36,140 nt of DNA, taken from positions 1 through 36,140 of IMG/VR virus record IMGVR_UViG_3300022538_000248; one strand, written 5' to 3'. The DNA is from a virus. This document shows, in pieces, positions 4,597-32,202 of this stretch (the stretch's first letter is position 1; every line of letters begins with the position of its first letter). The notes below the pieces were generated by a model. It searched no databases. It was not told the origin of the DNA and saw only the letters and a list, made by a program, of their open reading frames with translations. Made by a program: the position numbers and the translations under genes.

Positions 4597-4866
4597 TTAC
4601 CTCATAAAGTCAAACACTAACTGTTCCCCAATCCGTACTTCATCTTGCAACACAAATTCTGGAAAATTCAAGCGTACATCAGACAAATGATACTTATAAG
4701 ACTTATAAATATTCTCAGTATTCAATACTTCCAGTACTACAAGTACTTTACCTATATATTTGTCCATTCTGGGAGGCCAACTATCCATCCATAAATCATG
4801 CTCCGCAGCAGTAGATGCCCTTAATACCTTTACTTTGTCACCAACTTTGAATTTTGGAGTTCTCAT
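4597..4866 (-). CDS. KOW/SH3-like small protein with QLVFDFM tail (copy D)
   Basis: 89 aa: T-P-K-F-K-V-G-D-K-V-K-V-L at the start, then I-G-K-V-L-V-V-L-E-V, and the tail R-I-G-E-Q-L-V-F-D-F-M-R. The tail differs from the others by one Leu to Val, and its codons differ at several third positions, so the peptide rather than the DNA is conserved. It lies directly downstream of the primase gene. Confidence 0.87.
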   Translation of the reverse strand: MRTPKFKVGDKVKVLRASTAAEHDLWMDSWPPRMDKYIGKVLVVLEVLNTENIYKSYKYHLSDVRLNFPEFVLQDEVRIGEQLVFDFMR

Positions 4867-4874
4867 ATCATCCT

Positions 4875-5759
4875 CTATATCATACTAATCAACTCTTTTC
4901 TTACTGTCTTTTTCCCTTTAAGGGCAATGTACTCCCTAATATCCTTTGCCCCATTGAAAGAGAATATGGTTATATCAACTTCTCCTTCCCCAAAATCATC
5001 GTCATAATATAATCCGTCTAACTCATCTCGTAACTGCTCTGCTCCGGCTATACCCACAGTGTCATTGTCAGGTATAATAATTATCCTTTCAGTACCCGCT
5101 AAACCAGTTTCAAGAAACATATCCCATATACCATCTGTATATTGACAGTTGGAACGTGCTATGCTTTGCAATCCTAAATCCCACACACTTATGCCATCAC
5201 TGAATCCCTCACAGATAAACACATAGTAATCACCAATGAGGCCATGTGGATACATAAGCCCCAAACGGGAACCTGTGACACACCGCTTAGTCCCATCTGG
5301 GAATCTACGCTGCACTCCACAGAAACCGCTTTCCCTACGGTATTCAGTTAAATCCTCTCTGAACATTGGGATAGTGAAGGAACGCCCATCGTAACCCACC
5401 AACCACTCATCCAAACTATCCGTGCTTACATTCAATTCCTTTGCTAATCCCAACTTCAACAATGGAAACTTTTGCAGGTTGTTGTAGCAACTATCAGTAA
5501 ATTGCCGCCATAATGTATGTAGGTTAGGTCTGTCGTTTTTGTATATAACAAGCTCTGATAGATTTAATTTGTTCATCTGCTCATTGGTTAGATAACCTTC
5601 TTTGGAACATGCCCAACACTTGTATTTTCCATAATATCTATCTAACAGTGATATAGATAGGTTGGGTCTAATGGTATCCTTGTGAAAGCAACAGTAACTC
5701 CATACCCTGTCATGCTCCACTCTTATGATATTTAATTGTCGGAAGTCAGAGTTTTTCAA
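4875..5759 (-). CDS. DNA primase-like protein (CHC2-type zinc finger and TOPRIM)
   Basis: The 294-aa protein has an N-terminal zinc-finger-like region, C-C-F-H-K-D (about residue 23) then K-C-W-A-C-S-K-E-G, as in CHC2 primase fingers. A TOPRIM domain follows: V-F-I-C-E-G-F-S-D-G (about residue 180; acidic E) and I-I-I-I-P-D-N-D-T-V-G (the D-x-D motif). It should make RNA primers for replication. It is shorter than cellular DnaG and lacks a clear helicase-interaction domain. The start appears to be TTG at 5759 with AAGGAG upstream. Helicase and single-strand-binding-like genes are close by, all on the same strand. Confidence 0.88.
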   Translation of the reverse strand: MKNSDFRQLNIIRVEHDRVWSYCCFHKDTIRPNLSISLLDRYYGKYKCWACSKEGYLTNEQMNKLNLSELVIYKNDRPNLHTLWRQFTDSCYNNLQKFPLLKLGLAKELNVSTDSLDEWLVGYDGRSFTIPMFREDLTEYRRESGFCGVQRRFPDGTKRCVTGSRLGLMYPHGLIGDYYVFICEGFSDGISVWDLGLQSIARSNCQYTDGIWDMFLETGLAGTERIIIIPDNDTVGIAGAEQLRDELDGLYYDDDFGEGEVDITIFSFNGAKDIREYIALKGKKTVRKELISMI

Positions 5760-22349: not shown

Positions 22350-22420
22350 TTACTATACAAGGATGTATGTCTTGTGCCTTTATAAGCAAAGCTTTAGAAG
22401 GCACTATATATAAGAGACAA

Positions 22421-22855
22421 ATGAAAATCTATATTTACATTTTAACTAATGAGTTTAATGGTAAGCAGTATGTAGGTGTTTCCAAGAATCCCAAGATAAG
22501 ATTGAAGGAACATTACAAAACTGATTATCCTATTGGAAGAACTTTAAGAAAATATGATGGTCAGATTGATTTTAGTATTGTCGCCCAGACTAATGATTAT
22601 AAGTCAGCCTTTGAATTAGAAAAGTTTTATATCAAAGATTTGAACACTATGAAGCCTAATGGATATAATCTTACCCTTGGTGGAGAAGGTAATAATACCC
22701 CCCGTTCTGTGGAAACAAAGACTAAAATGGGTATTGCTCAAAGAAAACGTAGAGATAAGGAATTAAATGCCAAACCTAAAAAAGCTCAGGGTTATTTTAT
22801 GAACTATTTTCCGATACCGGAGGAAGAAAAATCGCACGTCCAAAAAAAGACATAG
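22421..22855 (+). CDS. GIY-YIG homing-type endonuclease
   Basis: 144 aa from MKIYIYILTNEFNGKQYVGV; the frame is open to 22367 but the extra 18 residues do not resemble the family. The GIY-YIG core is I-Y-I-L-T-N then K-Q-Y-V-G-V-S, with Arg in I-R-L-K-E-H and Glu in E-L-E-K-F-Y-I-K. It then has G-Y-N-L-T-L-G-G-E-G and a NUMOD-like S-V-E-T-K-T-K-M-G-I-A DNA-binding segment, as in Seg-type phage nucleases. Its end overlaps the start of the terminase small subunit gene by 25 bp, the sort of site homing genes occupy. Confidence 0.88.
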   Translation: MKIYIYILTNEFNGKQYVGVSKNPKIRLKEHYKTDYPIGRTLRKYDGQIDFSIVAQTNDYKSAFELEKFYIKDLNTMKPNGYNLTLGGEGNNTPRSVETKTKMGIAQRKRRDKELNAKPKKAQGYFMNYFPIPEEEKSHVQKKT

Positions 22856-23370
22856 GGGCGGCCTTCGCTTTAGTAGCTAAGGATTTGCTTGAAAATAATC
22901 AAAATATCGCAGATGTGGGGGTTATCCTTGGTACACTTGGGGAGGACTCCCTAAAGTGGCTTAAAGACCTCAAAGCGGAATGTACCACAGTTGACGAGTT
23001 CGTAGAGATTGCCAGGCAGAGGGCTGACATCTCCCTGATAGTGGCAGCGGTTAAATGTGCCTTGGGTTACGAATACCAAGAGGAAGATAAAACCTATCGA
23101 AATATACTCAATAACAGGGATGAGACGGGTGCTCCCGTGATGAAAGAAGTGGTTGATGGTAGGAAAGTCAAGATTAAGCGGGCATTACCTAATGAGGCTT
23201 TATTGAGGTTTATCCTGAAATGCCGCCTTCCAGAATACTTTACTGATACTCAGAGAATTGAGATAAATAAAAAGACCATTGAGATTAAAGAGATTGCTCA
23301 GAAGGAGATTGAGGAGTTTGGGCGAAAGCTTCTTGAGAGTATAAAAAGTGAAAATCAAAATCCCAGATAA
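22831..23370 (+). CDS. Terminase small subunit, apparent ATC start
   Basis: About 179 aa. The sequence after a strong SD (GGAGGAAG) reads ATC GCA CGT CCA AAA AAA, i.e. [I]-A-R-P-K-K-D-I-G-A-A-F-A-L-V, just what a terminase small subunit start (M-A-R-P-K-K) looks like, but with ATC instead of ATG. The next possible start is TTG at 22885. Later parts, I-S-L-I-V-A-A-V-K-C-A-L-G-Y and R-A-L-P-N-E-A-L-L-R-F-I-L-K, fit DNA-recognition terminase subunits. It should bind the packaging site and recruit the large subunit encoded directly after it. Confidence 0.8.
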   Translation: MARPKKDIGAAFALVAKDLLENNQNIADVGVILGTLGEDSLKWLKDLKAECTTVDEFVEIARQRADISLIVAAVKCALGYEYQEEDKTYRNILNNRDETGAPVMKEVVDGRKVKIKRALPNEALLRFILKCRLPEYFTDTQRIEINKKTIEIKEIAQKEIEEFGRKLLESIKSENQNPR

Positions 23371-24268
23371 TCCAAAGGCTTTCTATGGGTTGATACCAAC
23401 CGACCCAAAGGAGAATATCGAGTTCAGAGCGAATCTCCATAAAATGCTGGCTGTAGACCGTAAGGCACAGGCAGTATTTATGGAACTTTGCCGCCAATAT
23501 ATGCCAATCTTCTTTAGTTCGGTGGCTTGGACTTACAATCCTTGGACGAGACTGAACCATCCATTTATCCTTAGACCGGCTCAGATACCGGCAGTGGAGA
23601 CGTTGGATTGGTGCATTGAGAACGGACACGATGCTGGTATTAACAAGAGTCGTGAGGAGGGGGCATCTGAGATTAGTTGCAAGTTGTTTGCAGCAAAGGC
23701 ATTATTGTATGAATACGTGAACTTTATCTTGGGTTCACGAAAGAAAGAATTAGTAGATAATCACGGAGATTACTACACATTATTTGCCAAGGTGGACAAT
23801 GTTTTTAATTATCTGCCTTCGTGGTGGTTAGAACTTTCCGGTTATAATCCTAAAAATAACCGTAAAGATATGTTGTTGACAATACCGTTAAACAGTTCTT
23901 CAATAGTGGGAGAGACTACAAATGAGAGTTTTTCTGCTGGAAGCCGTGCTACGGCATTGTTACTCGATGAGTTCGGTCGTGTGGATGCAGCCACAGCTAC
24001 AGCAATAGAAGGGTCAGTACACGATGTGTCGCCCTGTATAATCTATAGTAGTACTCATTGGCTTGGTGCGGGGCATTGCTTCAATCAAGCCCTCGGCAAA
24101 GCAACCACAAAGGTTGTCGAACTCATCTGGCATCAAAATCCTACCAAAAACCAAGGGCTCTATACAAGTCCTAAAGTTGGTGAGATTGAGTTGATAGACG
24201 TGGATTACTACCGTCAACGTTGGCCGGAGGTACTTGAATATGCAGAAAATGAAATGTCCAGATTGTGA
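23348..24268 (+). CDS. Terminase large subunit, N-terminal ATPase fragment
   Basis: 306 aa with a GTG start overlapping the small-subunit gene. A degenerate Walker A, I-N-K-S-R-E-E-G-A-S-E-I (about residue 98), is followed by Walker B A-L-L-L-D-E-F-G-R-V-D (about residue 206) and the coupling motif S-S-T-H-W. These are packaging-motor ATPase motifs. The frame ends soon after W-P-E-V-L-E-Y-A, before the nuclease domain, which is encoded separately at 24420-25535. See findings for the duplicated P-E-V-L-E-Y-A and frame disruption. The two pieces presumably associate. Confidence 0.87.
   Translation: MKIKIPDNPKAFYGLIPTDPKENIEFRANLHKMLAVDRKAQAVFMELCRQYMPIFFSSVAWTYNPWTRLNHPFILRPAQIPAVETLDWCIENGHDAGINKSREEGASEISCKLFAAKALLYEYVNFILGSRKKELVDNHGDYYTLFAKVDNVFNYLPSWWLELSGYNPKNNRKDMLLTIPLNSSSIVGETTNESFSAGSRATALLLDEFGRVDAATATAIEGSVHDVSPCIIYSSTHWLGAGHCFNQALGKATTKVVELIWHQNPTKNQGLYTSPKVGEIELIDVDYYRQRWPEVLEYAENEMSRL
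24224..24244. repeat. Diverged duplicate encoding PEVLEYA, copy 1
   Basis: Bases encoding P-E-V-L-E-Y-A in the terminase ATPase frame. They match 24404-24424 at 16 of 21 bases, and all differences leave the peptide unchanged. This copy also supplies GGAGG and the ATG of the zinc-ribbon gene. Confidence 0.85.
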
Positions 24269-24395
24269 TAGTGAGAATACCGTTTCTCATACTGATAAGG
24301 AATTACGTAGTTTGAATTTGGAAGTTTGGCAATGTTTTGATTGTGAAAATAAATGGGAAAGTAACCCACCGTCTGTTTGGGACATAGATGATTGA
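24240..24395 (+). CDS. Zinc-ribbon protein inserted inside the terminase gene
   Basis: 51 aa: M-Q-K-M-K-C-P-D-C-D at the start and W-Q-C-F-D-C-E-N-K-W later, a C-x-x-C / C-x-x-C ribbon with an acidic C-terminus. GGAGG stands 9 bp upstream of ATG within the terminase ATPase frame, which it overlaps by 29 bp. It separates the two terminase pieces. Function unknown: it could be a passenger or help join the pieces. Confidence 0.78.
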   Translation: MQKMKCPDCDSENTVSHTDKELRSLNLEVWQCFDCENKWESNPPSVWDIDD

Positions 24396-24403
24396 AGAAT
24401 TAC

Positions 24404-24424
24404 CCAGAAGTATTAGAATATGCC
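24404..24424. repeat. Diverged duplicate encoding PEVLEYA, copy 2
   Basis: Second copy of the 24224-24244 segment. In the frame K-N-Y-P-E-V-L-E-Y-A-T-N it hits TAA; removing one T at 24430-24431 would make it run on into the nuclease piece. It also carries AGAAG and the ATG from which the nuclease piece can start. Confidence 0.85.
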
Positions 24425-25535
24425 ACAAATTAAAATAAATTATGAAGCCTTACCCGATGAATTAAAGAAACTCTTTATCGCCGATGGGTGTAAGAATCTA
24501 CCTGGGAAGTTTCGTAGCCCTTGGCATGATTATCAAGAATTGCGGCGAAAGGGCAATCGGCGGGACTTTGTATCAAATGTATGGGCTACTCCGATGGGGT
24601 CAAGCGATACCCCATTTGACCATACTGTTCTTGAGGACATTAAAAAGAGATATATTCGGGAACCAAATTTTGAGGGGGAAGTGGTTTTTGAATACGATAT
24701 TGATGGATATATTCAAAAAGAAGATATTGAACTTGACATTGAGGGCCCATATTTTATTTCTGATTTTGGAGGCAGGAGGTTAAAATGGTGGGGGAATTTA
24801 ATTCGAGGTAGACCAGACCAAAGACATAATTATATTGTTGGTTGTGACCCTTCTTATGGATTAGGTTCATCAAACTCAGTAGCATCAATTTATGATGTAA
24901 ATACAATGGAATTGGTTGGAGAATGGGTTTGTGCCAATACTAAACCAGAGGATTTTGCTGACCAATCAGTAGCAATAGCACAGTGGGTTGGTGGCGTAGA
25001 TGATACTTTCCTTATTTGGGAAAACAACGGTGGGCACGGAGTAAACTTTACCGATAGAGTTATTTGGCAAGAATACTGTAGTTGTTATACTCAAACAGTA
25101 GAAGATTCTAAAACTCGGAAAAGACAGAAAAAATATGGTTTCCATTCTACCCAAGACCGAAAAGCTGCTATTTTAGGTGAGCTTAGTATTGCTCTTGCTT
25201 GTGGTATTAGTGGGGATAAGAATTATAAGTCTTGTTTAATTTATAGCAAAGAATTGTTAGATGAATTGTTTGATTATATTTTCGTTGGGGGAAGTAAAGA
25301 AATTACAACTTCGTTGAAAGCGGATTTAAGTTCTGGTGCAAGAGAGAGACATGGTGATAGGGCCATAGCTGTTGCACTTTGTATTCTTGGAACGAGAGAC
25401 CAATTTGTTGGTGATTATTCGGAGACAAGAAAAGTTCCATTTGGTTCATTTGAATTTTATCGTAGGGTTGAGGAAACTAAACAAAAAGAGGACTATCGTA
25501 AAGCTAAAAAGTATCTGTTTGGAATTAATTTATGA
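24420..25535 (+). CDS. Terminase large subunit, C-terminal nuclease fragment
   Basis: 371 aa starting with M-P-Q-I-K-I-N-Y-E-A-L-P-D. It holds the linker region (G-C-K-N-L-P-G-K-F-R-S-P-W) and the RNase H-like nuclease: I-V-G-C-D-P-S-Y-G-L-G (first acid), L-I-W-E-N-N-G-G-H-G (second) and R-H-G-D-R-A-I-A-V-A-L (third). All three metal ligands are present, so it is probably active. The weak AGAAG start signal fits reinitiation. Its codon use is more AT-rich at third positions than that of the ATPase piece, suggesting a different history. It overlaps the portal gene as ATGA. Confidence 0.87.
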   Translation: MPQIKINYEALPDELKKLFIADGCKNLPGKFRSPWHDYQELRRKGNRRDFVSNVWATPMGSSDTPFDHTVLEDIKKRYIREPNFEGEVVFEYDIDGYIQKEDIELDIEGPYFISDFGGRRLKWWGNLIRGRPDQRHNYIVGCDPSYGLGSSNSVASIYDVNTMELVGEWVCANTKPEDFADQSVAIAQWVGGVDDTFLIWENNGGHGVNFTDRVIWQEYCSCYTQTVEDSKTRKRQKKYGFHSTQDRKAAILGELSIALACGISGDKNYKSCLIYSKELLDELFDYIFVGGSKEITTSLKADLSSGARERHGDRAIAVALCILGTRDQFVGDYSETRKVPFGSFEFYRRVEETKQKEDYRKAKKYLFGINL

Positions 25536-27289
25536 AAAGTAGTAAAAAATATATTGAAACAAGTCAATATAAAGAACAGAAGTTTGAAGAAAGGCTCCAA
25601 ATACTTGTAAGGGCGTGGCAAAAAAAATGGGAAGACCCACAGGCTCATACACAGAAATTGCTGGCTTCCTATGCTTCGGGGTATTTTGACAAACGCCTCG
25701 CAAGAGAGCATCCAATAAATCTTATAGACAGGGGGGTTTCAACTATAGTTCCTTTTCTTGTTGAAGGCAATCCAAGATTGATGGTTGAATCCATAGTTCC
25801 AAATATGCGTCCATCAGCACACAGAACACAATTAGCTTTGAATTATTTAATTGATAAAAAAATGAATCTGGCTGAGAATGTTTTTATTCCTGCTGCTGTA
25901 ATGTCAATGTTTGGTGGTGTAGCAACCAGGACTTTTTCAGAATACGACCGTATTATAAATTTAGATGATGAGGAAATAAAGTTAGGTACACCAAGAATAA
26001 TATTAATAGACCCTGCTGACTATATTGGTGACCCAGCAGCCAAAAGTAGGAATGATTTTATTATTGAAGGTGATATTTATAGGTTGCCTACTGATTATGC
26101 TAAAGATATATTTGACCATCCTGATGAAATCTCGCCATCAGGAAAATTAATTACTAAATTTAGTGCTGAAAAAATAACAAACCCAGATTTTAATTGGAAC
26201 AAATTAAACCTACGTGACTATTCTATATTTATTGATTTATATATAAGAGATGAAGGAATAATTGTTACAATAATGCCTTATGGCAATACTCCAGTAAGAT
26301 TAAAAACCATTGAATACGATGGCCCTGGTGAGGGGCCTTACGATTATCTTGGTTATAAGTATTTTCCTGGATGCCCTATTCCAATACCCCCTGCTTGGGC
26401 GTGGAATGACCTTGACTATAGTATGAATGTACTTGCCAGAACAGCTCGTGAGCAGGCTGAATCTCAGAAGAATGTTATAGTTGCTGAACCTTCTTCAAAA
26501 GAAGCAGCTAAAAAAATTATAAAAGCATCTAATATGGATGTTATTGTAGCAAAGGGAGTAGAGCAAGTAAAAACTTTATCTTTTGGTGGTGTAAATCCTG
26601 ATAACTATAATTGGATGGCTTTTGCTGAGCAGGAGTTCACAAAAACTGGGGCCAATCCTGATGTGTTAGGGGGTCGTGGAGCACAAGCACCTACGCTCGG
26701 ACAAGAACAACTTGTATATCAAAATGCAAGTCGGATTGTAAATAATATGTACAATCGGTTTGAGAATTTCATGGTATCTGTTATAAATAAATTGGCTTAT
26801 TACGTGTGGACTGACCCCACAGTATATATTCCAGTTATTAATAAAATACCTGGTCTTGGTGAAATTCCCATGGTTTTCTCACAAGCCGATAAAGTCGGTG
26901 ATTTCTATGATTTTATTTTTAACATAAAACCATATAGTAGTCAACGAAGCTCACCAGAGTTGCTATATCAAAGACTAATGCAGTTTATGAGTAGTTGGGT
27001 ATTACCCACAGCAGGTATTGCTACTGCACAAGGTGCTGAGATTGATATTGTTACAGCAACACAAATATTAGCTGACTACGCCGGTTTTGATAATTTTAAT
27101 CAGATTTATAGAAGTGCAGTTCCACAAGAGCCTGGAAATGTACCCTATACTATGATGCCGGTTAGTGGACAACGGCCAGAAGGCACAAAAAGTCCTGGTC
27201 AAATGCCGGACACATTTGGTGCATCTGAACCATCGAGAACAGCCAATATGCAACAACAGCAAAAGCGAACTGGTGGGGGAACAAAATGA
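25532..27289 (+). CDS. Portal protein
   Basis: 585 aa, the usual size for a portal. It follows terminase by an ATGA overlap. Recognisable parts: R-E-H-P-I-N-L-I-D-R-G-V-S-T near residue 65, an extended wing and stem, L-A-R-T-A-R-E-Q-A-E-S-Q-K-N near residue 310 and a Gln/Gly-rich C-terminal tail. The portal forms the dodecameric ring through which DNA enters the head. Identification rests on size, order (terminase-portal-protease-scaffold-capsid) and overall pattern. Confidence 0.82.
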   Translation: MKSSKKYIETSQYKEQKFEERLQILVRAWQKKWEDPQAHTQKLLASYASGYFDKRLAREHPINLIDRGVSTIVPFLVEGNPRLMVESIVPNMRPSAHRTQLALNYLIDKKMNLAENVFIPAAVMSMFGGVATRTFSEYDRIINLDDEEIKLGTPRIILIDPADYIGDPAAKSRNDFIIEGDIYRLPTDYAKDIFDHPDEISPSGKLITKFSAEKITNPDFNWNKLNLRDYSIFIDLYIRDEGIIVTIMPYGNTPVRLKTIEYDGPGEGPYDYLGYKYFPGCPIPIPPAWAWNDLDYSMNVLARTAREQAESQKNVIVAEPSSKEAAKKIIKASNMDVIVAKGVEQVKTLSFGGVNPDNYNWMAFAEQEFTKTGANPDVLGGRGAQAPTLGQEQLVYQNASRIVNNMYNRFENFMVSVINKLAYYVWTDPTVYIPVINKIPGLGEIPMVFSQADKVGDFYDFIFNIKPYSSQRSSPELLYQRLMQFMSSWVLPTAGIATAQGAEIDIVTATQILADYAGFDNFNQIYRSAVPQEPGNVPYTMMPVSGQRPEGTKSPGQMPDTFGASEPSRTANMQQQQKRTGGGTK

Positions 27290-29274: not shown

Positions 29275-29610
29275 ATGGAAGACCCACAATGTAGTATTTG
29301 CAAGGCAAATTTTAGGTCAGAAGCAATGGTTGGTTCTAAGTGTGAAACTTGTGATAAGCTATACCCAGATGCTAAAACACTGGAGGATATAGCAGACCCT
29401 AATAAAGAACGAGCACGATTACTTAATGAACCAGTAATTAGGGAAATTGTTTATGATATATTAGCAGAAGCGGGGATTGTCAGAAAACGTTGTGAAACCT
29501 GCCAAAAAAAGTTTTTCCCAAAAAGTCCGGCTCAGAAATTTTGTAGTGTTTGCAGGTTCAAAACAAAGGTTACAAATGACAAAAGTGATTCTGATAAGGA
29601 GAAAAACTAA
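29275..29610 (+). CDS. Double zinc-ribbon protein
   Basis: 111 aa with two Cys sets: C-S-I-C-K-A and C-E-T-C-D at the start, and R-C-E-T-C-Q-K-K-F-F then F-C-S-V-C-R near residue 80. The helix between them (N-E-P-V-I-R-E-I-V-Y-D-I-L-A-E) is amphipathic. It overlaps the scaffold gene as TAATG, so may be co-translated with it. Function unknown. Confidence 0.8.
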   Translation: MEDPQCSICKANFRSEAMVGSKCETCDKLYPDAKTLEDIADPNKERARLLNEPVIREIVYDILAEAGIVRKRCETCQKKFFPKSPAQKFCSVCRFKTKVTNDKSDSDKEKN

Positions 29611-30539: not shown

Positions 30540-30564
30540 ACAATAATTTTTAAGGGAAATGATA

Positions 30565-31668
30565 ATGGCAATTGAAACAGATTTTGAGAAGGCATTGGAT
30601 ATTTGGAATGCTACTCTTGCTCATATTATGACCAAGAAACCTGCTCTTGCAAACTTTGCATATAGAAAATATCAGTTCTTCAATATGTTTTTTAAGAATG
30701 CAATGAAGGTAAAAGGTGGAGACCATCTTGAAGGTCATATTACGTTATTGAGTGAAGGTAACGCATCCCATGCCGGTATCTGGGACCAAGATACACTGGT
30801 GAAAAAGAATATCGACCGTAAATATACAGTGAACTGGAGACAGGCCAAGGGCGGTATGCTTTGGAACCTGATGGAAACAAGTATCAATAGTGGTGCTGAG
30901 AAGATTTTTGATGTTCTTGAGCAGCAATATGAGTCTGCCATCAAGGATATTATAGAGGAAATTTATCTGGCTATATTGACTGGGCCTGATAGTGCCAGCG
31001 ATGTAAATGCTCCCAGTTCTATATTTACCTGGTTGAGACTTGGTAGTAACAATTCTACTGGTGGATGGACAGGTTATCGAAGTCGTTACAATGATAGCAC
31101 TTCCGCTGTTGGTACTGCATATGATACCGCTGGGATTAATTCAAGTGCCTCGGTTCATCCCAACTGGGCAAGTTACTATGCTGACCATAATGGTAATTTG
31201 GATGAGACATTGTTGACGTATGTGGATAGGGCATTACGCAAACTGAATTTCCAAGCACCGACTATTCCGCAAACTGTCGGGGAAATGAATGGTAACATTG
31301 ATTTCTCGCTGCACACTACGGACAATGTTATTAGTAAACTGAATACGTTTTATGCCAAGAGTGATGACAATATGGGTTACAACCGTGACTCTCATTATGG
31401 TACTCCTACGATAAAAAGTATTCCATTGGCATACGTTGATATTCTTGATACTGCTCGTAAAGCGATTTATGGTACTGACCCGATTATTGGTCTGAACCAC
31501 AGCAGCATCTTTCCAGTTATCCATACGGATTGGAACTTTAAGGAGATTGATGGTAAAGACCCGAACCGTTCAGTTGTGATGCAGAAGGTTATTTGGCTGC
31601 GTTATAACATCTTTTGTCGTAACCCCAAGGATTCTGGCTTTCTTATCTCGCAACACGTTACTGCATAA
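30565..31668 (+). CDS. Major capsid protein
   Basis: 367 aa from M-A-I-E-T-D-F-E-K-A-L; the ATG at 30559 is six bases earlier. Characteristic are G-G-D-H-L-E-G-H-I-T-L-L, W-R-Q-A-K-G-G-M-L-W-N and the conserved D-S-H-Y-G-T-P near residue 275. Length, place after the scaffold, and more G/C at third positions than most neighbours, as usual for highly expressed genes, all fit an HK97-fold shell protein. SD AAGGGA. Confidence 0.85.
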   Translation: MAIETDFEKALDIWNATLAHIMTKKPALANFAYRKYQFFNMFFKNAMKVKGGDHLEGHITLLSEGNASHAGIWDQDTLVKKNIDRKYTVNWRQAKGGMLWNLMETSINSGAEKIFDVLEQQYESAIKDIIEEIYLAILTGPDSASDVNAPSSIFTWLRLGSNNSTGGWTGYRSRYNDSTSAVGTAYDTAGINSSASVHPNWASYYADHNGNLDETLLTYVDRALRKLNFQAPTIPQTVGEMNGNIDFSLHTTDNVISKLNTFYAKSDDNMGYNRDSHYGTPTIKSIPLAYVDILDTARKAIYGTDPIIGLNHSSIFPVIHTDWNFKEIDGKDPNRSVVMQKVIWLRYNIFCRNPKDSGFLISQHVTA

Positions 31669-31680
31669 GGACTTATGTAA

Positions 31681-32202
31681 ATGTTAAAATCTAAAACTTG
31701 TTCAAAATGTGGTAAAACAAAAGATATTAGTGCTTTTGTTAAACAATGTAGTAGCCCTGATGGGCATTGTTATGAATGTAAACAATGTCGTAAGGAATAT
31801 TATCAAAAGAACAAAAAAGAGATTTTAGCAAAAAGTAAAGTTCGTTATCAAGGAAATCGTGTTAAAAGAATTGAAAATACTGCTGATTATAGAAAAAGAC
31901 GGATTAAGTTACAGCCTGATTATCGTGCTGTTGAAAACCGAGCAGCATTTGCACGTAAACTTGGTATAAGTTCTGATGCAGTTGAGGAATACTATAAAAA
32001 ACAATTTATGAAACAACAAGCCCACTGTGCTATTTGTGGTAAGATAACTGAAAAGTTGTGTATTGACCATAATCACAAAAAGCAAGGTATAGATTCTTGT
32101 AGAGGATTGTTGTGTAAAAGTTGTAATTATGGTATTGGGTGTTTTTTGGATAATCCAGAATTTCTGGGAAATGCAAAACAATATTTAATTAACAATTTTT
32201 AG
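31681..32202 (+). CDS. Recombination endonuclease VII-like nuclease
   Basis: 173 aa. The C-terminal domain has C-A-I-C-G-K, L-C-I-D-H-N-H-K-K-Q and R-G-L-L-C-K-S-C-N-Y-G-I-G, the zinc-plus-DHNH core of T4 endonuclease VII. An N-terminal ribbon C-S-K-C-G-K and C-K-Q-C-R precedes a basic linker. Such genes often occur as free-standing homing-like nucleases. Placement between the major capsid and decoration genes, with low-GC codon use unlike the capsid gene, suggests insertion. Confidence 0.9.
   Translation: MLKSKTCSKCGKTKDISAFVKQCSSPDGHCYECKQCRKEYYQKNKKEILAKSKVRYQGNRVKRIENTADYRKRRIKLQPDYRAVENRAAFARKLGISSDAVEEYYKKQFMKQQAHCAICGKITEKLCIDHNHKKQGIDSCRGLLCKSCNYGIGCFLDNPEFLGNAKQYLINNF

Follow-up and report, generated by a model that had tools for sequence, protein, structure and literature searches.

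Whether a large terminase subunit that is read as two genes can still drive DNA packaging, and how it came to be divided, are the questions raised by a locus in IMG/VR virus record IMGVR_UViG_3300022538_000248, analyzed here from position 1 to 36,140 (the window, 36,140 nucleotides in all). The large terminase subunit, TerL, couples ATP-driven DNA translocation to cutting of the genome, normally within one chain. Read from the DNA alone, the window instead holds two open reading frames (ORFs), one for a 306-residue ATPase chain (23348..24268, plus strand; GTG start, TGA stop) and one for a 371-residue nuclease chain (24420..25535, plus strand; ATG to TGA), placed around a gene for a 51-residue zinc ribbon with a Cx2C...Cx2C pattern (24240..24395, plus strand; ATG to TGA, with an alternative ATG at 24249). 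A preliminary description of the window had drawn the locus in this way and its coordinates hold. The present study suggests that the large terminase is probably made as separate ATPase and nuclease chains, divided at a linker that is targeted by probable homing endonucleases.

Both halves are predicted to keep terminase folds, one a TerL-type ATPase and the other an RNase H-fold nuclease with conserved acidic residues. The AlphaFold model of the ATPase chain, built on 68 sequences (predicted local distance difference test [pLDDT] 92.6), has T4 gp17 (3cpe, E 1.1e-9) and its ATPase domain (2o0h) as its best matches in the Protein Data Bank (PDB). That of the nuclease chain, built on 76 sequences (pLDDT 88.2), best matches the G20c TerL nuclease (5m1p, E 1.4e-7), with further matches to T4 gp17 (3cpe) and the RB49 gp17 nuclease and a weaker one to the nuclease of herpes simplex virus (HSV) pUL15 (E 6e-3). 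K100, R102, G105, D207-E208, and S235-T236 are invariant among the 68 ATPase sequences, and we take these residues to be the Walker-like and other named motifs of TerL-type ATPases; D143, H311, and D313 are invariant among the 76 nuclease sequences. Neither half matches Pfam at E up to 1. In PHROGs the ATPase chain is without a match and the nuclease chain has two matches only (E 0.36 and 0.61), PDB sequence searches with queries A1 and A2 gave no match, and a genome contig scan found no relative. By tblastn in phage records, the nuclease chain gave one weak match (E 4e-4), while the ATPase chain matched 125 records, none reaching 60% identity (best E 4e-21, about 30% identical); it resembles, likewise with about 30% of residues identical, the TerL of Acinetobacter phages.

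The division of terL into two genes at one linker recurs among relatives of the window and is not an assembly accident, because the same linker is divided in 20 further distinct loci, whose joints hold different content or are empty. Viral contigs were scanned twice with a single protein and twice with an alignment, which yielded 112 records including the window (relatives are cited by L number), both halves being present in 109 and one-sided records being L051, L070, and L089. After removal of near-copies (nuclease at least 98% identical, same state), these represent 77 distinct terL loci; the gene is continuous in 54, divided at the ATPase/nuclease linker in 21 (the window counted), and broken elsewhere in 2. 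The scans were seeded with the window's own split family, and from one of them the best 80 of 120 confirmed loci were retained; the figure of 21 in 77 should therefore not be read as a prevalence. The same split in other genomes, which the preliminary description had proposed to look for, was thus found, and the 20 loci besides the window come from 17 different metagenome numbers, as which we take the record prefixes. A split can also be read in L051 and L070, which are truncated by contig ends. The nearest ATPase relatives of the window are all split, the closest continuous one being L003 (82%). Separately, L032 has an in-frame stop in its ATPase just ahead of a TTNENF motif (1482-1484; L032/L087), and L042, whose ATPase is identical to that of continuous L043, has a nuclease frame break at about 4680-4724, either of which could be an error or real; L012 shows an additional frame break within its ATPase gene. 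Fourteen comparisons of split loci, among pairs picked by hand, gave nonsynonymous divergence (dN) of 0.015-0.12 and synonymous divergence (dS) of 0.38-2.0, rough values with dS partly near saturation, and the continuous pairs tried were much alike (dN 0.018-0.081, dS 0.31-2.5). These values point to strong purifying selection on both halves in split loci.

What sits in the joint varies. An endonuclease VII-type HNH gene fills it in L023, L024, L050, and L052 (PF02945, E 4e-14 to 7e-26), the four proteins being 32-41% identical to one another, and in L050 the HNH gene is followed by a ribbon. Other ORFs of 32-112 residues occupy the joints of L004, L006, L007, L008, L009, and L011; that of L012 holds a 192-residue ORF without a Pfam match, presumably methylase-like from a sequence motif; that of L076 is a gap of about 94 nucleotides without an ORF of 30 codons; and the remaining eight (L002, L005, L021, L063, L068, L072, L111, and L112) are empty. 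By blastp (E up to 1e-3) the four HNH proteins are alike and the two ribbons are alike, the other cargo proteins being without likeness to the rest. Homologues of several cargo ORFs lie at neighboring positions: those of the L009 ORF immediately upstream of the ATPase gene in L003 and L010 and, in L004 and L007, at the end of the nuclease gene or close behind it, those of the L006 ORF at or just after the nuclease gene in L068 and L070, and those of the L008 ORF upstream in L005 and in L008 itself. The L004 cargo gave one short match only, in L012, and no copy of the cargo of L007, L011, or L012 was found elsewhere in the relatives' records. HNH relatives are likewise present elsewhere in many of the loci, including the window. 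Since cargo and HNH relatives occupy other borders, the split linker now appears to behave like any gene border where small genes settle. In L007, an HNH relative (2192-2620) lies upstream of the ATPase gene and an HNH fragment (5114-5278) behind the nuclease gene, on both outer flanks.

The layout of starts and stops at the joint suggests how two chains could be translated. The ATPase stop overlaps the start of the next ORF in 17 of the 21 split loci, twelve of these overlaps being TAATG, TGATG, ATGA, or TAGTG. In the other five (the window, L005, L024, L050, and L052), a purine-rich box formed by P-E-V/L precedes the next ATG, which is embedded in the E/D-Y-A codons. A +1-frame ATG inside E-Y-A/V is the only near start of the nuclease ORF in L005 and L051, the latter reading as split and insert-free with its nuclease ATG within E-Y-V. 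The T4 nrdA/mobE overlap UAAUGA has been described as suggesting translational coupling (PMC2988022). In the window the motif PEVLEYA is encoded twice on the plus strand. Copy 1 (24224..24244), at the ATPase C terminus, carries in its +1 frame the GGAGG box (24226-24230) and the ATG (24240) of the ribbon gene, and copy 2 (24404..24424) holds the AGAAG box (24406-24410) and the ATG (24420) of the nuclease gene, each box lying 9 nucleotides ahead of its own ATG. The copies agree at 16 of 21 DNA positions, all five differences being synonymous, and 0 of 2000 mononucleotide shuffles of the downstream 332 bp reach that score. Both the duplication and the Shine-Dalgarno-like boxes had been recognized in the preliminary description and are borne out. 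The same description placed a one-base shift behind copy 2; that such a shift is damage is contradicted by the insert-free L005 and L051, in which the same +1-frame ATG is the nuclease start.

The ribbon can be followed to a probable source. Its Pfam zinc ribbon matches are sub-threshold only; all four cysteines are common to the ribbon homologues in L050 and L002. Besides the near-copy contig of the window, a ribbon-protein scan found one further homologue, 80% identical, in L114, a 4.4-kb contig in which no terL was found; there an endonuclease VII-type HNH gene (PF02945, E 1.3e-17) comes first, its stop overlapping the ribbon ATG, and both genes lie downstream of portal and protease homologues. 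The inserted stretch of the window (24242..24401, plus strand) is identical to L114 2425-2590 at 139 of 166 DNA positions. The homology begins right behind the GAATAT of PEVLEYA copy 1, and the eleven bases with which it opens correspond, in L114, to the final codons and the stop of the HNH gene. Because the homology starts in the end of that HNH gene, and because L050 carries an HNH gene and then a ribbon, the window's ribbon would be a passenger left from an HNH-ribbon cassette and the stretch a remnant of such a mobile element. The sequence GCAGAAAA, common to the L052 HNH start and the L114 HNH end, would allow loss of the HNH gene between short repeats, two different phages being compared here. 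A recent target-site duplication as origin of the PEVLEYA repeat was rejected, because the copies differ and copy 2 resembles the insert-free joint of L005. The repeat is perhaps best seen as marking the point where an incoming ATPase-ribbon end met a resident nuclease start, the two parents having carried different versions of the motif. An NQKP/NQKS-like nuclease leader, at first sight common to the split loci and considered as an HNH scar, was dropped, as comparable residues occur in the linkers of continuous genes.

Maximum-likelihood trees give the split a repeated history. The nuclease tree holds 76 of the 77 rows (L042 left out) and the ATPase tree 73 (L032, L057, L080, and L103 left out), with L032 and L042 counted as not split in whichever tree held them. 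Each tree needs 9 changes of split state, and well supported branches alone force 9 in the nuclease tree and 8 in the ATPase tree; gains and re-fusions of the split are not separable by these counts. Global DNA alignment of occupied and empty sites was uninformative, the linkers being too diverged, and protein comparisons were used. Close uninterrupted alleles exist for three of the four HNH-bearing loci: L052 is 81.5% identical in the ATPase and 83.4% in the nuclease to continuous L054, of the same metagenome number; L024 is 87.6% and 82.1% identical to continuous L025; and the nuclease of continuous L028 is 89.4% identical to that of L024 and 82.2% to that of L050. The trees also disagree with each other, in that L021, L063, L068, L072, and L023 join continuous L017/L019 in the ATPase tree and the L004-L012 split group in the nuclease tree. 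Approximately unbiased (AU) tests forcing either grouping on the other half rejected it (p-AU 5e-6 and 1.7e-47), the groups having been picked after the trees were seen and one including the window. Exchange points between the terL halves do not fall exactly at the joint: in the nuclease, L063 comes to resemble L009, and L068 to resemble L012, only past about codon 60.

The window itself shows mosaic ancestry of this kind. Its ATPase is 86-92% identical to those of L004-L009 and L012 (the L012 ATPase being partial), and codons 1-70 of its nuclease are 84-94% identical to the same loci, whereas codons 116-371 are 49-51% identical to them. Identity to the L051 nuclease rises instead, from 54% early to 78% in the stretch of codons 116-371, with 93% in the best 30 residues. 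Third-position GC falls from 38.7 to 22.7% at the same place as the identity drop; it is 27.5% in the 51 codons of the ribbon. Taken together, the identity drop from about codon 75 and the fall in third-position GC put the change of ancestry inside the nuclease gene, about 220 bp or more past its start, in a breakpoint zone at 24640..24765 (codons about 75-115). The earlier proposal that the nuclease piece came from a related terminase gene survives insofar as part of the gene does derive from another terL lineage, with a join near codon 70-80; a foreign join at the split, and a change of third-position composition there, do not agree with the shared early codons and with the position of the shift.

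Collectively, these data are consistent with a scheme in which free-standing genes of the endonuclease VII-type HNH class, which probably encode homing endonucleases, land repeatedly in the interdomain linker of TerL, where their insertion would separate terL into two cistrons. The HNH gene would later be lost or replaced, leaving a passenger (in the window, the zinc ribbon), another small ORF, or nothing. The two chains would be translated one after the other from one operon, via the stop-start overlap or an internal start, and would rejoin by contact in the packaging motor. We infer that the HNH proteins home, that they caused the split, and that the chains work together. Two reassembling chains are the most likely product, because both halves are constrained, no Rfam family was found, and the HNH inserts have no room for an intron; the two-chain motor that the preliminary description had allowed is accordingly upgraded from conceivable to favored, as judged from sequence. 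A broader reading, in which the terminase is modular, its halves are exchanged separately, and the joint is a docking site for homing endonucleases and their passengers in a recurring, stable fission, is put forward tentatively and with somewhat less than even expectation. Several observations weigh against the endonuclease scheme. The window's own joint has no HNH gene, and such genes fill only 4 of the 21 joints (L070 would be a fifth), 8 being empty. The nearest relatives of HNH-bearing L023 are split, not continuous, in both trees, and in L002 the ribbon stands alone, downstream of the portal gene and without an HNH match. The unequal PEVLEYA copies speak against a fresh target duplication. 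Stop-start overlap is absent from L002 (TTG directly after the ATPase stop), L006 (next ATG 11 nucleotides on), L076, and L072, the last having no ATG, GTG, or TTG ahead of the nuclease profile start. Finally, the split may predate its cargo, a simple indel having come first.

This last idea is the core of the alternative that plain linker indels made the split, the PEVLEYA DNA supplying a ribosome-binding-like box and a +1 ATG, and that HNH genes and small ORFs entered later. The 8 joints without cargo fit it, as do the nuclease ORFs of L005 and L051, which start at the E-Y-A/V ATG, and the similar box and +1 ATG at the motif in continuous L014, L037, L077, and L084. Linker +1 ATGs are common anyway, however, occurring in 37 of the 54 continuous loci, and HNH-filled L024, L050, and L052 have continuous near relatives (L024 and L050 being neighbors of each other), so that we regard an indel origin as unlikely, if a serious contender. 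A single TerL chain could instead be restored by splicing, by frameshifting, or by bypassing of the kind known from T4 gene 60. Spliced terL genes are described for ICP1 (PMC10448857) and Bastillevirinae (PMC11878797), and frameshifting at the insert-free joints, or stop read-through in L002, could still operate. Yet the window and nine other split loci gave no Rfam match at the gathering score, nor did 23900-24800 give one at E up to 1; the HNH and HNH-ribbon inserts consist entirely of coding sequence that overlaps or adjoins the genes on either side, leaving no noncoding room for a group I ribozyme; and the insert-free joints hold nothing to splice. Restoration of one chain is therefore very improbable.

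That the ribbon, like the HNH protein, is a working part of the motor would parallel the account of HNH proteins beside HK97-type terminases (PMC10448857), and HNH genes do adjoin terL in several relatives. The window's joint, in contrast, lacks an HNH gene, the window having an HNH gene at 31681-32202 and a GIY-YIG gene at 22367-22855; the ribbon is missing from 19 of the 21 joints, which hold other genes or none, and in L002 and L114 it is located downstream of portal. A motor role is thus very improbable. The strain-chimaera assembly raised in the preliminary description draws on the composition shift about 220 bp past the nuclease start and on the fact that one contig, maybe from the window's own sample, supplied the pieces L001, L013, and L113, with 100% identity at the joint. 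With the split common to 20 further distinct loci, from 17 metagenome numbers and with varied or no contents, it can be considered exceedingly improbable as an explanation, and the preferred reading remains a terminase of two chains.

The surroundings of the locus are those of a packaging operon, in the order small terminase, ATPase, ribbon, nuclease, portal-position gene, and protease, so that the divided terL lies between small terminase and portal, the latter identified by position only. The small subunit-like gene (22885..23370, plus strand; TTG start) overlaps the ATPase gene start; its product matches PHROG 309, terminase small subunit (E 1.4e-5), and homologues, 69-88% identical, precede the ATPase gene in L004-L009, L012 being without a match. 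The gene at 25532..27289 (plus strand), next in the operon, has homologues 57-62% identical after the nuclease gene in L003-L009 and L012, and also there in L051; its product has no Pfam or PHROG match, and we take it to be the portal from its position and from the usual operon order. Directly upstream of the small terminase gene lies the GIY-YIG endonuclease gene (22367-22855, plus strand; PF01541, E 6.9e-12), with a PHROG homing endonuclease match (E 1.8e-25) and no homologue in the other 111 records (tblastn, E up to 1e-3). The endonuclease VII-type HNH gene at 31681-32202 (plus strand) stands directly behind a major-head-like gene (30559-31668; PHROG 9953, E 3.7e-7), and a weak PHROG HNH endonuclease match at 29275-29610 (plus strand; E 2e-4) suggests that the structural module may hold a third mobile nuclease. 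On the minus strand, 11405-12613 matches Peptidase M42 at 23.4 bits against a Pfam cut-off of 23.2, with a weak C-terminal ClpX-type zinc-finger match.

Signaling between the two domains of TerL is, to our knowledge, still open, and motors split at the linker that have continuous near relatives would let domain coupling be tested by mixing separate chains. Such motors would also place a selfish-element route to gene fission in the packaging motor. In addition, gene calling and phage trees that rely on terL are liable to overlook split genes or to halve them, as the failure of either half to match Pfam illustrates. Certain annotation lists for phages provide for a terminase ATPase and a terminase nuclease as separate entries, and a two-gene TerL as such may already be noted elsewhere. 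Herpesvirus pUL15, whose nuclease fold is similar to the window nuclease model (E 6e-3), is encoded by a two-exon gene that is spliced to give one chain, unlike the window's split.

Interruption of terL by introns, inteins, or endonucleases is reported for ICP1 (PMC10448857), Bastillevirinae (PMC11878797), Jug phages (PMC12363816), Lelliottia phD2B (PMC4246154), Campylobacter IBB_35 (PMC3322345), and Enterococcus iF6 (PMC10054541). In all of these the gene is in pieces, several with a homing endonuclease inside or nearby. In the first five, however, the interruptions are introns or inteins (shown, predicted, or presumed), unlike those of the window's family, and in iF6 a 95-residue terL piece is cut off by VSR endonuclease genes, again unlike the window's split (PMC10054541). 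An unspliced ATPase/nuclease terL pair with exchangeable cargo was not found in the excerpts searched, which covered few subscription journals. The closest likeness is to genes in pieces such as Aeh1 nrdA, split by the HNH endonuclease gene mobE, with phage 25 gene 43 and the T4 topoisomerase as further cases (PMC2988022): in Aeh1 an essential gene is divided into two cistrons by an endonuclease gene that stands free, as is probable for terL here, and the product is reported to work as two chains, as would be expected of the window's terL. The window differs in that the gene is terL, the split falls between two domains, in their linker, the split state has changed at least 8 times, the cargo varies, and the endonuclease gene is absent from the window's joint, being present in the split in 4 of 21 split loci and in L070. 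By analogy with Aeh1 nrdA, our findings suggest genes in pieces here in the packaging motor, with two exchangeable chains.

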